A stretch of 20,606 nucleotides of DNA from a virus, in the IMG/VR virus record IMGVR_UViG_3300006072_000068, positions 1 through 20,606 of that record. One strand, given 5' to 3'. Within the stretch, counting starts at the first letter, position 1; every line of letters starts with the position of its first letter. This document shows, in pieces, positions 15,173 to 20,119 of the stretch. Both the position numbers and the translations under genes were made by a program. The notes below the pieces were generated by a model. The model made no database searches. It was given only the letters and a program-made list of their open reading frames with translations, and was not told where the DNA came from.

Positions 15173-15393
15173 GCGAACACTTCTTCACATTATCGGCCAG
15201 TCAAGGTGGCCCCGGTTACGTCTCAATAACCGCTTATAGCTGGACTAGAGCGCGTGAAATCATGTTTGGGATATACAACGGGAAATGGGCTTTTCAATAT
15301 GACTCGATAGACCAAATTCATGCAAATGACCAGCTCTGCCTTTTGAAGATAGTTGAAAAGAGAAAGCCGAAAGATGGATCAAGAACAGCATAA
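15169..15393 (+). CDS. Small alpha/beta protein, unknown function
   Basis: 74 residues, coupled upstream by ATGA. SEHFFTLSASQGGPGYVSIT has the form of two beta strands, AYSWTRAREIMFGIYNGKWA a helix with an aromatic patch, and the remaining YDSIDQIHANDQLCLLKIVE another strand plus helix. A pattern of this type (a strand, a G-Y turn, then WxxARExMFxxxxxxWAFQY) is recurrent in small proteins of phage accessory regions. I cannot assign a role. The next gene begins 20 bp before this stop in another frame. Confidence 0.55.
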   Translation: MSEHFFTLSASQGGPGYVSITAYSWTRAREIMFGIYNGKWAFQYDSIDQIHANDQLCLLKIVEKRKPKDGSRTA

Positions 15394-15565
15394 ATATCGT
15401 TGTTTAATTAGGCAACTCTTAAAGTATCGCGCTGAGTGGGGGCTTGAGAAATATCGCTGTTATATCAACGGGCCAAAAGCTGCATGGATGAAAAAACTTA
15501 CTGAAGAGGATTTTGTAGATCAATGGAAAAAAGGAAATCGTGGTAAATCGGGGGATTGGCGATGA
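15374..15565 (+). CDS. Small basic protein in the nin-like region
   Basis: 63 residues from ATG 15374, overlapping the gene before by 20 bp; a TTG at 15353 is the alternative but its ribosome site is poorer. The peptide is basic, with DQEQHKYRCLIRQLLKYRAE, WGLEKYRCYINGPKAAWMKK and DFVDQWKKGNRGKSGDWR. Two cysteines are present but no metal motif is seen. It is coupled to ninB by an ATGA overlap. Its place before ninB is that of small nin-region genes in lambdoid phages, but I cannot match it to a particular one. Confidence 0.55.
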   Translation: MDQEQHKYRCLIRQLLKYRAEWGLEKYRCYINGPKAAWMKKLTEEDFVDQWKKGNRGKSGDWR

Positions 15566-15945
15566 GACGTTATTTTGTTCTGGCCCATGATGAAGCAAGG
15601 GCTAATGCCAAAAAAGCGGTTGAGGAGGCCCCAGACGGCTATGCAGTCGAAGTTAAGCCAATCAAGCGAACGTTGGCACAGAATGCCAAGCTTCACGCTC
15701 TATTGAGCGACATTGCAAGGTATCTTGAGTGGGCTGGTAAACGGCGCGATGTTGAAGTATGGAAGCGCTTACTTACCGCTGCATGGCTTCGTGCTCGTGG
15801 TGAACCGCTGGAAATACTCCCTGCTATTGATGGACATGGAGTAGACATTGTATTTCGAAGAACATCCGAGCTTACAAAGAACGAAATGATTGAGTTGATT
15901 GAATACATACAGGCTTGGGCCATAGATCAGGAAGTGGAAACATGA
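15562..15945 (+). CDS. ninB: NinB-like recombination protein
   Basis: 127 residues from ATG 15562, in an ATGA overlap. The signature KRTLAQNAKLHALLSDIARY (about 37-56) with WAGKRRDVEVWKRLLTAAWL (about 58-77) is NinB (lambda Orf family) and FRRTSELTKNEMIELIEYIQ (about 99-118) follows as the C-terminal helix. Lambda Orf/NinB binds ssDNA and SSB and supplies a RecFOR-like mediator function in phage recombination. It would thus work with the SSB and ERF made from the leftward transcript. Length is close to the family's usual 140 or so residues. Confidence 0.87.
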   Translation: MRRYFVLAHDEARANAKKAVEEAPDGYAVEVKPIKRTLAQNAKLHALLSDIARYLEWAGKRRDVEVWKRLLTAAWLRARGEPLEILPAIDGHGVDIVFRRTSELTKNEMIELIEYIQAWAIDQEVET

Positions 15946-16550: not shown

Positions 16551-17096
16551 ATGATTACCATCGAATATAGGCCCTTAGAAAGCCTTATCCCTTATGCTCG
16601 AAATTCACGAACTCATTCTGACGAGCAAATCGCGCAAATCGCTGCCAGCATTCAAGAATTTGGTTGGACCAATCCTGTCTTGGTTGATGGGGAAAATGGT
16701 CTTATAGCGGGCCACGGGCGCGTTATGGCTGCGCGTAAACTTGGAATACAAGAAATCCCGAGCATCCAGCTTGCTCATCTAACTGAAGCTCAAAAACGGG
16801 CACTTGTTTTAGCTGACAACAAATTGGCCATGAATGCTGGATGGGATGAATCGCTTTTAAAAATTGAACTTAAAGAACTTGCCAATTATGATTTTAATTT
16901 GGAAATCATAGGCTTTGATTTAATTGAATTAGCTAATTTATTTGATGAAATTCAAGAAGAAGAAAAAGAATTAAAAGAAGAATTGTATTCTGAAGTTTTT
17001 AACGTAATTGTTGAATGCAAAGACGAAGAAGAACAAGAAAAAATTTTTAATCGTTTGGACATCGAGGGATATAAATGCCGAGTTCAAAGTTTGTAA
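16551..17096 (+). CDS. ParB-like nuclease/CTPase domain protein
   Basis: 181 residues. Residues 1-90 are a ParB/sulfiredoxin-type domain: YRPLESLIPYARNSRTHSDE, IAASIQEFGWTNPVLVDGEN, and the key GHGR motif (IAGHGRVMAARKLG, 52-65). Residues about 70-105 (IQLAHLTEAQKRALVLADNK) match the helix found in phage ParB proteins that are fused to or sit by DNA methylases. The C terminus (about 147-181) is a separate small module, SEVFNVIVECKDEEEQ then IFNRLDIEGYKCRV, also seen after such domains. The expected role is DNA binding or CTP/phosphate-based action. No methylase domain follows; instead the ABC-GNAT gene starts 22 bp before this stop. Confidence 0.85.
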   Translation: MITIEYRPLESLIPYARNSRTHSDEQIAQIAASIQEFGWTNPVLVDGENGLIAGHGRVMAARKLGIQEIPSIQLAHLTEAQKRALVLADNKLAMNAGWDESLLKIELKELANYDFNLEIIGFDLIELANLFDEIQEEEKELKEELYSEVFNVIVECKDEEEQEKIFNRLDIEGYKCRVQSL

Positions 17097-18163
17097 TTGA
17101 AAGTCCCACATCAAATTCATTCAAAGCAAACAAAGTCAAATCAGCGTTCGATTTTGATGCCGATGTAGTCAGAAAAGAATTCGACGTTAAAATTCCGATT
17201 GAAGACAAGAAATGGAATGTAGGTCTAATTGTCGGAGCATCAGGAAGCGGTAAAACAACAATTGCTCGACGCCTGTTTAAAGATTTCCTTTTTTTTGAAG
17301 GCTATGAATGGACGGGGCAATCCATTATTGATGATTTTGGCGATCATTCAGCTAAAGACATTACGGAAACGCTGTGCAAAGTCGGGTTCGCTTCGCCTCC
17401 TGATTGGCTAAAACCATTTCAAGTCTTATCAAACGGTCAAAAGATGCGAGCAGAACTCGCCAAATTGATCCTAACAAGCGAAAAACCCTGCATTTATGAT
17501 GAGTTTACTTCTGTTGTGGATCGCCAAGTGGCTTGCGTAGGATCGTCAGCAATCCAAAAATTCATCAGGAAACAAGACAAACAATTCATCGCTGTTTCTT
17601 GTCATTATGACATTGAAAAATGGTTGGAACCTGATTGGGTTTACAACTGCGACAAAGCAGAATTTGTCTGGAGGGATCTTCGGCGTCCTGAAATTGTCTG
17701 CAACATCAGAAAAGCTGAGCAACGTGAATGGAAGCAATTCATGGAGTTTCATTATTTGAGCCACGATCACAATATGGCAGCGCACAAATACATTTGCGAA
17801 ATCAATGATCGACCTGTGGCGTGGTGTTCAGTTTTGCATTTTCCGCATCCTCACGTCAAAAACATGAAGCGTATTCATCGAATAGTAATCAAACCTGATT
17901 ATCAAGGTATTGGACTCGGCAAACAATTTTTGAATGAGATAGCCAAAAAATACAAAAAACAAGGATTTAGAGTGTCATTGGTTACAAGTTCACCTGCATT
18001 TGTTCATGGATTACAACATGACAAAGCATGGGCAATGGTAAGAAAACCGGGTCGTTTGAAAGATACGGCAAAAACAGGAATATTGGCTGGATCAACATCC
18101 GATGCTCGATTGACTGCAACGTTCGAATTCAAAAGCATTGAACAAGAAAAATCAAACCCATAA
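17075..18163 (+). CDS. ABC ATPase fused to GNAT acyltransferase domain
   Basis: 362 residues, overlapping the ParB-like gene by 22 bp. Residues about 45-200 form a soluble ABC ATPase: Walker A GASGSGKT (54-61), signature LSNGQ (118-122), Walker B PCIYDEF (138-144) with catalytic Glu143, D-loop VVD (147-149) and switch His177 (VSCHYD). No membrane domain is present. Residues about 206-345 are a GNAT fold: EFHYLSHDHNMAAHKYIC, then the acetyl-CoA motif A, HRIVIKPDYQGIGLGK with QGIGLG at 277-282. Nucleotide-driven conformational change may gate or load the acyltransferase. The phage Mu Mom DNA-modification enzyme is also a GNAT protein, so modification of phage DNA is an attractive reading. Antibiotic or protein acetylation is not excluded. 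Start ATG 17075 has GAGGGATATAA upstream. Confidence 0.82.
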   Translation: MPSSKFVIESPTSNSFKANKVKSAFDFDADVVRKEFDVKIPIEDKKWNVGLIVGASGSGKTTIARRLFKDFLFFEGYEWTGQSIIDDFGDHSAKDITETLCKVGFASPPDWLKPFQVLSNGQKMRAELAKLILTSEKPCIYDEFTSVVDRQVACVGSSAIQKFIRKQDKQFIAVSCHYDIEKWLEPDWVYNCDKAEFVWRDLRRPEIVCNIRKAEQREWKQFMEFHYLSHDHNMAAHKYICEINDRPVAWCSVLHFPHPHVKNMKRIHRIVIKPDYQGIGLGKQFLNEIAKKYKKQGFRVSLVTSSPAFVHGLQHDKAWAMVRKPGRLKDTAKTGILAGSTSDARLTATFEFKSIEQEKSNP

Positions 18164-18168
18164 ATGAC

Positions 18169-18693
18169 ATGGCATACACAAGATACGACTGGAATGTTGT
18201 TAAAGCATTCTATGAAAGTGGTCTATCTCTTTCAGAGATTACTGAAAGGGAGGAAGTTGCTATTAAAGACAGAAGTTCTATTAGTAAAAAGGCAAAGACA
18301 GAGGGATGGATAAAAGGTAAAATTCAACCCCTTGTTGAAAAAACTATCCATGTGAAACAACAGCTTGCTGAGATTTCGGAGCAAAAATCAACACTAAATT
18401 CAACAGAGCTTGAGGTTCATCAGACTCTAGTTGATGAGCGCACAAAAGATTTGCACTTCTTTCGGAAGGCCAGTTTGTTGATTGCACAAAGGGCAGTAAA
18501 GAAGGTTCAAGAGACTCCAATCATGGATATGAAGGAGTTAGAAATTGCCCAAAATGTCATTGGAAAAGGAAAAGAGAACATTTATGGAAAGTCTCCAGAC
18601 GTTGCCGTACAGGTCAATAACCAAATTGGTGCATCCCAGCTTAGAGAGATGACCGATGATGAGCTACTCGAAATCGCAATCGGACGCAGCTAG
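18169..18693 (+). CDS. Terminase small subunit
   Basis: 174 residues. The N-terminal part reads as a helix-turn-helix-like DNA-binding domain (RYDWNVVKAFYESGLSLSEI, TEREEVAIKDRSSISKKAKT, EGWIKGKIQP), as in small terminase subunits and homeodomain-like phage proteins. The middle is a long helical oligomerisation region (ERTKDLHFFRKASLLIAQRA, VKKVQETPIMDMKELEIAQN), and the tail VAVQVNNQIGASQLREMTDD, then ELLEIAIGR is typical of terminase small subunits and probably touches the large one. It overlaps the large-subunit gene by 38 bp. It would choose the pac or cos site. Confidence 0.8.
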   Translation: MAYTRYDWNVVKAFYESGLSLSEITEREEVAIKDRSSISKKAKTEGWIKGKIQPLVEKTIHVKQQLAEISEQKSTLNSTELEVHQTLVDERTKDLHFFRKASLLIAQRAVKKVQETPIMDMKELEIAQNVIGKGKENIYGKSPDVAVQVNNQIGASQLREMTDDELLEIAIGRS

Positions 18694-20119
18694 GGAAGTT
18701 TTAATCCGTAGGATGGCAAGAGAGGACATCCTGCACTATGCCAATGCCATTGATGTTCCGGGTAGACCCGGATCGGAAGATCCTGATACCGAATTTTTCT
18801 ATCCAGTCGAAACTACGATGGCTTTGCATCATCGTCTTCTTCTTTCCAAACTTCATCAAGTCTCAAGAACCAAGCATGGAAGAATGATGATCTTCATGCC
18901 TCCCGGTAGTGCGAAGTCAACTTATGCGTCAGTGGTGTTTCCATCTGACTATTTAGGGGCTATTCCCGGTAGCAAAATCATTCTTGCTAGTTATGGAGAC
19001 GACCTAGCCCGTAAATTAGGTAGACGCACTCGCTCTATCATCAAGCAGCCACGCTATAGGGGGATATGGAATGCAGTTCTGACCGCTGAATCTTCAGCAG
19101 CTCAGGAGTTCACTTTAACTAACGGTTCTGAATACATGGCTCGTGGAATCCTTGGAGGCGTTACTGGTAATAGAGCTAACGGAATCATCATTGATGACCC
19201 CATAAAAGGGCGCGATCAAGCAAACTCACCAATTATTAGAGATAGAACTTTTGCAGCGTATGAGGATGATCTAAAGACGCGACTCATTCCGGGTGGATGG
19301 ATTTGCATAATTCAAACACGATGGCACGAAGACGATTTATCGGGACGAATCCTTCCAGAAAACTGGAACGGTGAAAGTGGAAAGATTCTTTGCAAAGATG
19401 GCAACTATTGGGAAGTTATTTGTCTTGCAGCTAAATGCGAACAGGAGAATGACCCGCTTGGACGTGAAATTGGCGTATATCTCTGGCCAGAATGGTTCGA
19501 CCGTAAACACTGGGATCAGTTCGAGCAAAACCCAAGGACTTGGGCTGCACTCTTCCAGCAACGTCCCGCTCCGCTTGAGGGTGATCTATTTAAGCCTGAC
19601 CAAATTAAAGTAGTTGATGCAATACCCGCTGGAAACATCAAATGGTGTAGAGGATGGGATTTAGCCAGCTCACCGGAAGGTGACTATACGGCAGGAGGCA
19701 AACTCGGAAGGCTCGAAGATGGGCGGTACATTATCGCGGATATGGCCAGAATGCGTGTAGGCCCTGACCAGCGGGACGCTGCAATGATCAATATTGCCTC
19801 ACAGGATGGGCGAGGTATTCGAATAAGCATTCCCCAAGACCCCGGACAAGCTGGCAAAACCCAAGTCTTATACCTTACTCGTGCATTATCGGGATACAAT
19901 GTAAAAAGTTCGCCTGAGACGGGAGACAAAATAACGCGCGCAGAACCTTTTGCAGCTCAGGTGAACGTTGGCAACGTGCTTATGCTTCGAGGAGATTGGA
20001 ATCAAGCCCTCATCAATGAAATGCGAGTGTTCCCTAATGGAGCTCATGATGACCAAATCGACTCCCTGTCAAGAGCGTTTTCTGAAATAATGGTTGCTCG
20101 TAAGAGTTTCTTTGGATAG
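18656..20119 (+). CDS. terL: Terminase large subunit (DNA-packaging ATPase/nuclease)
   Basis: 487 residues. ATPase: Walker A-like FMPPGSAKST (about 80-89), Walker B IIIDDP (about 176-181), and a C-motif-like IIQTRWHEDDLSG (about 218-230). Nuclease (RNase H-like): GWDLASSPEGDYTAGG (about 332-347), and the closing acidic motif GAHDDQIDSL (about 461-470). The start at ATG 18656 overlaps the small-subunit gene and keeps the AAREVLIRRMAREDILHYAN helix that usually begins these proteins; ATG 18713 would remove it. TerL translocates DNA into the procapsid and cuts it. The protein starts the late morphogenesis block, which runs into the portal. Confidence 0.94.
   Translation: MMSYSKSQSDAAREVLIRRMAREDILHYANAIDVPGRPGSEDPDTEFFYPVETTMALHHRLLLSKLHQVSRTKHGRMMIFMPPGSAKSTYASVVFPSDYLGAIPGSKIILASYGDDLARKLGRRTRSIIKQPRYRGIWNAVLTAESSAAQEFTLTNGSEYMARGILGGVTGNRANGIIIDDPIKGRDQANSPIIRDRTFAAYEDDLKTRLIPGGWICIIQTRWHEDDLSGRILPENWNGESGKILCKDGNYWEVICLAAKCEQENDPLGREIGVYLWPEWFDRKHWDQFEQNPRTWAALFQQRPAPLEGDLFKPDQIKVVDAIPAGNIKWCRGWDLASSPEGDYTAGGKLGRLEDGRYIIADMARMRVGPDQRDAAMINIASQDGRGIRISIPQDPGQAGKTQVLYLTRALSGYNVKSSPETGDKITRAEPFAAQVNVGNVLMLRGDWNQALINEMRVFPNGAHDDQIDSLSRAFSEIMVARKSFFG

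Follow-up and report, generated by a model that had tools for sequence, protein, structure and literature searches.

The stretch of viral DNA analysed here, hereafter the window, comprises the 20,606 bases of a single IMG/VR virus record. Directly upstream of its terminase genes, terS and terL, lies a pair of genes encoding a ParB-like protein and an ABC ATPase fused to a GNAT domain, and the question raised by this locus is what such a pair does for the phage. An earlier note on this DNA had proposed that the fusion stands in for a methylase and modifies bases before packaging. Judged from sequence comparison, the pair is indeed likely to be a phage DNA-modification module, lying in a slot that is held by a ParB-fused methylase in sister phages.

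All features of the locus lie on the + strand. The ParB-like gene (16551..17096, 181 aa, P0001) matches PHROG 620 with an E value of 6e-58. Its Pfam ParB_N score of 25.4 bits is just below the cut-off of 26.3, and a profile search matched Noc/Spo0J/ParB structures at E 1e-14. The PHROG and profile matches place its N-terminal domain in the ParB/Srx superfamily. This domain (residues 7-135 approximately, 16569..16955) carries a GHGR box and shares 66% identity with the corresponding ParB portion of a methylase fusion in the sister phage L169. The C-terminal module NVIVECKDEEEQ...GYKCRVQSL (residues 146-181, 16986..17093) corresponds to a separate 54-aa family, PHROG 28816, and is kept in most of the ParB proteins that partner an ABC-GNAT protein. 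Both parts are present in the product as the earlier note had described them. The ParB protein is acidic, unlike the basic GNAT part of its partner.

The ParB gene overlaps the ABC-GNAT gene (17075..18163, 362 aa, P0002) by 22 nt at 17075..17096, exactly as first noticed, and the two genes are probably translationally coupled through this overlap. The fixed right neighbour is the small terminase gene terS (18169..18693), assigned from its position before terL, since its product has no PHROG match; the TerS of L169 shares 98% aa identity with it. The large terminase gene terL (18656..20119) is 99% identical in aa to that of L169 over the 402 aa covered there. In the sister phages L012 (3029-5287) and L013 (6585-8843) the TerL frame is longer than that of the window by about 795 nt, inserted in frame, possibly as an intein or another insertion.

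The fusion protein scores above the Pfam cut-offs for both ABC_tran and Acetyltransf_1, and its whole length matches PHROG 11143 (E 1.5e-97), a family annotated as of unknown function. The ABC ATPase domain (residues 1-200, 17075..17674) contains a Walker A motif at G54-T61 (17234-17257), an LSNGQ signature at residues 118-122 (17426-17440), the Walker B pair D142-E143 (17498-17503) and a switch histidine, H177 (17603-17605), which together place it in the ABC ATPase superfamily. The GNAT domain (residues 203-352, 17681..18130) contains an HY motif (17750-17755) and the acyl-CoA loop QGIGLG at residues 277-282 (17903-17920). The first reading of a complete ABC ATPase joined to a GNAT domain with this loop was thus accurate for every motif. 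COG2401 is the class 'ABC-type ATPase fused to a predicted acetyltransferase', and a literature search on it found no paper. Membership of PADLOC defence proteins was also considered and rejected, the matches being partial and limited to the P-loop (mad3, 1e-8; mad8, 2e-4).

Across 16 divergent phage and 48 viral-contig homologues, residues G54, S56, G57, G59, K60, L118, S119, G121, D142, E143 and H177 of the ABC domain and Y227, R269, G278 and G280 of the GNAT domain are invariant. Walker A T61 is replaced by Ser in three homologues and G282 is changed in a few. Loss of catalytic residues, which the earlier note had named as a sign against its proposal, is therefore not seen in either domain. 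The dN/dS ratio is 0.05-0.08 across the whole gene for the sequence pairs where it could be estimated; the fusion is thus a genuine gene that purifying selection maintains. The GNAT part (residues 203-362) has a pI of 9.9, and its pI exceeds 8.5 in 48 of 48 relatives, with a median charge of +14.6.

The AlphaFold2 model of the fusion has a mean pLDDT of 86.7, and a separate model of the GNAT part reaches 88.5. Foldseek comparison of the whole model was dominated by ABC cassettes; TmcA ranked second with a TM-score of 0.29, a match used here solely as an architectural analogy. The best 50 PDB matches of the GNAT model are generic acetyltransferases with TM-scores of about 0.6 and mostly 10-15% identity. 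They include RimI, PaiA, YncA and other acetyltransferases of proteins or small molecules. Profile comparison of the same part gave only weak matches, spermidine and RNA cytidine acetyltransferases being among them. The earlier note had taken a closest match to an antibiotic, tRNA or protein acetyltransferase as evidence against a role on DNA. Formally such matches are the closest, but the folds are generic and silent on the substrate.

The pairing of the two genes extends well beyond the window. After dereplication at 90%, 67 viral-contig ABC-GNAT loci were retained, 66 of them with upstream DNA. A ParB gene stands beside the ABC-GNAT gene in 62 of these 66, a co-occurrence that the earlier note had suggested looking for, and the overlap is exactly 22 nt in 59, so that neither the pairing nor the overlap is due to chance. 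The 22-nt overlap is also found in Pseudoalteromonas SL25, Lactococcus P335, Streptococcus MismyG and Javan523, and Oenococcus Vinitor-27 phages; it measures 19 nt in Pasteurella Pmp13 and Leptospira LE3, and 4 nt in Arthrobacter and Gordonia phages. A minority of loci is without ParB: in L097, L112, L113 and L135, upstream DNA is available and no ParB gene lies nearby. The ABC-GNAT gene of L097 sits between primase/helicase-like and DNA polymerase-like genes.

The family, whose members are usually annotated as transporters or hypothetical proteins, comprises at least 595 matches on viral contigs and 432 in bacterial genomes. The bacterial relatives came from an alignment-based search of bacterial genomes; the single P0002 sequence used as query found no relative there. 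The bacterial loci (Planctomycetota, Nonomuraea, Endozoicomonas) occur mainly with terminase and portal genes and are therefore read as prophages. ParB is present at 51 of 66 of them, and no restriction-enzyme partner appears among the commonest neighbour clusters.

In the phages of Gram-positive hosts P335, MismyG, Javan523 and Vinitor-27, the ABC and GNAT domains are encoded by separate adjoining genes, so that the fused gene represents one form of a unit of two enzymes. ASCH-domain genes follow such split genes in Streptococcus and Oenococcus phages (L004:6117-6485, L042:5131-5508, L032:5070-5504). In an SSU5-type phage-plasmid (L041:2515-5935), two ParB genes are accompanied by an ABC gene and a GNAT-like gene; the last of these matches the profile in its GNAT half (E 3e-11). 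The ABC gene of this phage-plasmid has relatives on 872 plasmid records, mostly from Klebsiella, Escherichia and Acinetobacter.

The main evidence for a role in DNA modification comes from the exchange of this unit with DNA methylases. Among the 80 viral loci nearest to the ParB of the window, 55 have a ParB-fused methylase, in keeping with what the earlier note had stated of such ParB domains; the call rests on a DPPY-type motif, and Pfam N6_N4_Mtase was confirmed in the four cases checked. The other partners found in these 80 loci are ABC-GNAT (15), Mom (PF25680; 2), a C5-cytosine methylase (1) and a PAPS-reductase-like gene (1). In this last locus (L187:4078-5169), the ParB of the same clade stands beside the PAPS-reductase-domain gene and is followed by another ParB-like gene, possibly marking a further ParB-linked modification system.

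Sister phage L169 displays the exchange directly. It shares 98% DNA identity with the window at 15267-15920 and is nearly identical through the start of parB. Near-identity stops close to 16635, similarity persists to 16846, and homology returns exactly at the terS start codon (18169), with 95% DNA identity over 1.7 kb. Between these matching flanks, where the window has the stretch 16635..18168, L169 carries a ParB-fused N6/N4 methylase with a DPPY motif. A second swap is found between L024 and L223, which are 95% identical until within parB and 91% identical from the end of the enzyme gene. The replacement of a methylase by the ABC-GNAT fusion, conjectured in the earlier note, is thus supported by these two pairs and by others. 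A tree of the ParB sequences places the L169 fusion closest to the window protein; three or more switches of partner label fall on well supported branches, single forks being uncertain given the few columns. The L185 locus, with the C5-methylase, and the L217 locus, with Mom, have very similar genes straight downstream, at the terS position. Since a near-identical sister phage has a DNA methylase in its place, the module most likely modifies phage DNA. Exchange in the same slot is evidence of equivalent selection or of common recombination ends rather than of identical chemistry.

The generic GNAT fold leaves room for a protein or small-molecule substrate. The GNAT domain could act on a protein (host RNA polymerase, a nuclease or a ribosomal protein) or on tRNA or rRNA, with the ABC domain as a regulatory ATPase and ParB as a transcription or DNA-binding partner. 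The presence of RimI, PaiA and YncA among the best fold matches is compatible with this, GNAT enzymes of host takeover exist in phages (Rac, cited in PMC7824862), and TmcA, the closest ATPase-GNAT protein by architecture, modifies tRNA. However, fold likeness at 10-15% identity is uninformative, and the swapping with DNA methylases, which share both the slot and the ParB clade, speaks against such a target. We regard this explanation as unlikely.

Less probable still is a Mom-type system, in which the GNAT part would be a divergent Mom producing the Mom base, N6-carbamoylmethyl-adenine. Mu Mom (PF25680, PDB 8bv8) is likewise a phage-encoded member of the GNAT superfamily with an HY motif, and this motif falls in register with that of the window protein in a weak profile match. 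Mom genes also stand before terS beside the same ParB clade (L217, L238), the ParB and Mom genes of Microbacterium phage Antuna overlap, and in two Mu-like phages the ABC-GNAT gene ends the tail operon, the place of mom in Mu. A specific kinship to Mu Mom, towards which the earlier note leaned, nevertheless found no support. PF25680, which strongly matches Mu Mom itself and the L217 and L238 proteins, is absent from the 25 best families listed for the fusion (all with E≤0.15). Alignment of the GNAT part with Mom by hhalign was not significant (probability 0.5-2%, E 0.02-0.11), and 8bv8 is absent from the best 50 PDB matches of the GNAT model. Homology to Mom was rejected, as the Pfam, profile and fold levels were all negative. 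Moreover, the window protein has a fused ABC domain and retains the canonical QGxGxG acyl-CoA loop, which Mom lacks at the place aligned by eye, and Aeromonas PX29 holds both genes. The ABC-GNAT protein, which resembles Mom in position and partner, may act in a similar way although it is not a member of that family.

Folds of the ParB and soluble ABC types are characteristic of DNA machines, the gene pair precedes terS and terL, and SSU5-type phage-plasmids have a ParB-ParB-ABC arrangement. ParB and the ABC domain might accordingly form a DNA-handling machine for packaging start, segregation or protection against nucleases, with the GNAT domain as an accessory of unrelated function. We consider this very improbable, because the GNAT residues are as invariant as the ABC residues and under purifying selection, the GNAT gene stays beside the ABC gene where the two are split, a GNAT-like gene also follows in SSU5, and the sister phage has a methylase instead. 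Finally, the ATPase of a substrate-import transporter, as implied by the public annotation 'ABC iron siderophore transporter' in Streptococcus and Oenococcus phages, can be dismissed with near certainty, since no adjoining permease was found at any locus read, the neighbours are ParB and terminase genes and the ABC domain is fused to a GNAT domain.

Coming back to a DNA-modification module, a working scheme can be proposed, each step of which is less certain than the overall role. The ParB/Srx protein, its translation coupled to that of the enzyme through the gene overlap, would bind or slide on phage DNA, as its family suggests, and recruit the enzyme partner; that one ParB clade is shared among different partners is seen directly in the loci. 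The ABC domains would dimerise with ATP and open or present the target base, by analogy with the ATPase half of TmcA, which is described as delivering the tRNA base to the active centre (PMC4234376). The basic GNAT domain would then use acyl-CoA to acylate an exocyclic base amine, for example N6 of A or N4 of C. Finally, the position of the module and its exchange with methylases and Mom suggest that the modified DNA would be packaged and escape host restriction, so that the pair may serve in counter-defence. This order of ParB loading, base presentation and acylation is proposed because of the basic GNAT part and its acyl-CoA loop, and because of the precedents of TmcA and of DpdB, a ParB-like ATPase acting in DNA base modification (PMC12839542). 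Taken to its most specific form, the scheme depicts an ATP-driven DNA nucleobase acyltransferase that makes a novel acylated base (for example an acyl-cytosine or an acyl-adenine other than the Mom base) and is loaded by a ParB clamp serving as a shared, interchangeable adapter for methylases, Mom and ABC-GNAT. We put this forward tentatively, as plausible rather than probable.

Formyltransferase genes lie directly after ABC-GNAT in phages of Porphyromonas (L009:7107-7580), Pseudomonas (Komp_PAO1_1, L035:5077-5694) and Gordonia (NHagos, L034:1826-2473); Formyl_trans_N was matched in the first two, the third being assigned by similarity. Such a neighbour is possibly a donor or tailoring enzyme, a hint that the donor chemistry may vary. 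In a single case, the Gordonia-group phage Jace (L008:7098-7523), the following gene encodes a PanD aspartate 1-decarboxylase (E 2e-33), which by its predicted activity would supply beta-alanine or a CoA precursor. The formyltransferase and decarboxylase neighbours hint at a formyl or beta-alanyl group as the adduct.

Several known systems resemble the module in part. The phage ParB-fused N6/N4 methylase (PF02195 and PF01555, PHROG 498) has the same ParB domain and genomic slot, but in the window the enzyme is an ABC-GNAT protein on a separate overlapping gene and ParB carries the C-terminal module instead. TmcA/NAT10 also joins a P-loop ATPase to a GNAT domain, and it hydrolyses ATP in acetylating an exocyclic amine of a base. 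However, its ATPase is of RecD-helicase type and its substrate is RNA; the window protein is not a member, scoring 12.2 bits with GNAT_acetyltr_2 against a cut-off of 24.6 and having no helicase_RecD domain. The Dpd (DpdA with ParB-like DpdB) and DndB systems likewise combine a ParB-superfamily NTPase with an enzyme modifying DNA bases or the backbone (PMC12839542, PMC10853773), but enzyme and chemistry differ and they belong to hosts, not phages.

The suspicion that ABC-GNAT fusions had been noted before was justified. According to Iyer et al. 2021 (PMC7824862), the earlier study by Iyer et al. 2013 (NAR gkt573) had identified an ABC ATPase-coupled GNAT and predicted that it acylates a DNA base in a way not yet characterised. 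The 2021 text gives QAX98348.1 as an example of this family. That protein is row L036 of our homologue alignment A1, is 32-33% identical to the window protein over the full length and shares the invariant motifs, so the window protein belongs to the same family and the core of the present inference was already published as a prediction. QAX98348.1 (L036:3902-5080) belongs to the record of Aeromonas phage AsFcp_2; the 2021 passage names Tenacibaculum phage pT24. The idea of DNA acyl modification is thus not new, and protein family and predicted role are the same. What the present analysis adds is the conserved coupling to ParB through 22 nt, the methylase swaps, the split-gene forms and the formyltransferase neighbours; the word ParB does not occur in the searched text of Iyer et al. 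2021. As far as we could find, no activity or modified base has been reported for any ABC-GNAT member, and the LE3/LE4 paper gives no evidence of DNA modification and mentions neither restriction nor modification.

DNA modifications of phages drive the contest with host restriction and are a source of enzymes for biotechnology. The contextual evidence assembled here is stronger than that found in the literature searched, and the methylase swaps provide a sharp functional argument for the ABC-GNAT family. Cultured carriers (Lactococcus P335, Gordonia-group Jace, Leptospira biflexa LE3/LE4, Pasteurella Pmp13 and Pseudomonas Komp_PAO1_1) make the decade-old prediction of DNA modification directly testable. 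A ParB subunit serving chemically different modification enzymes would, in addition, point to a common loading mechanism.
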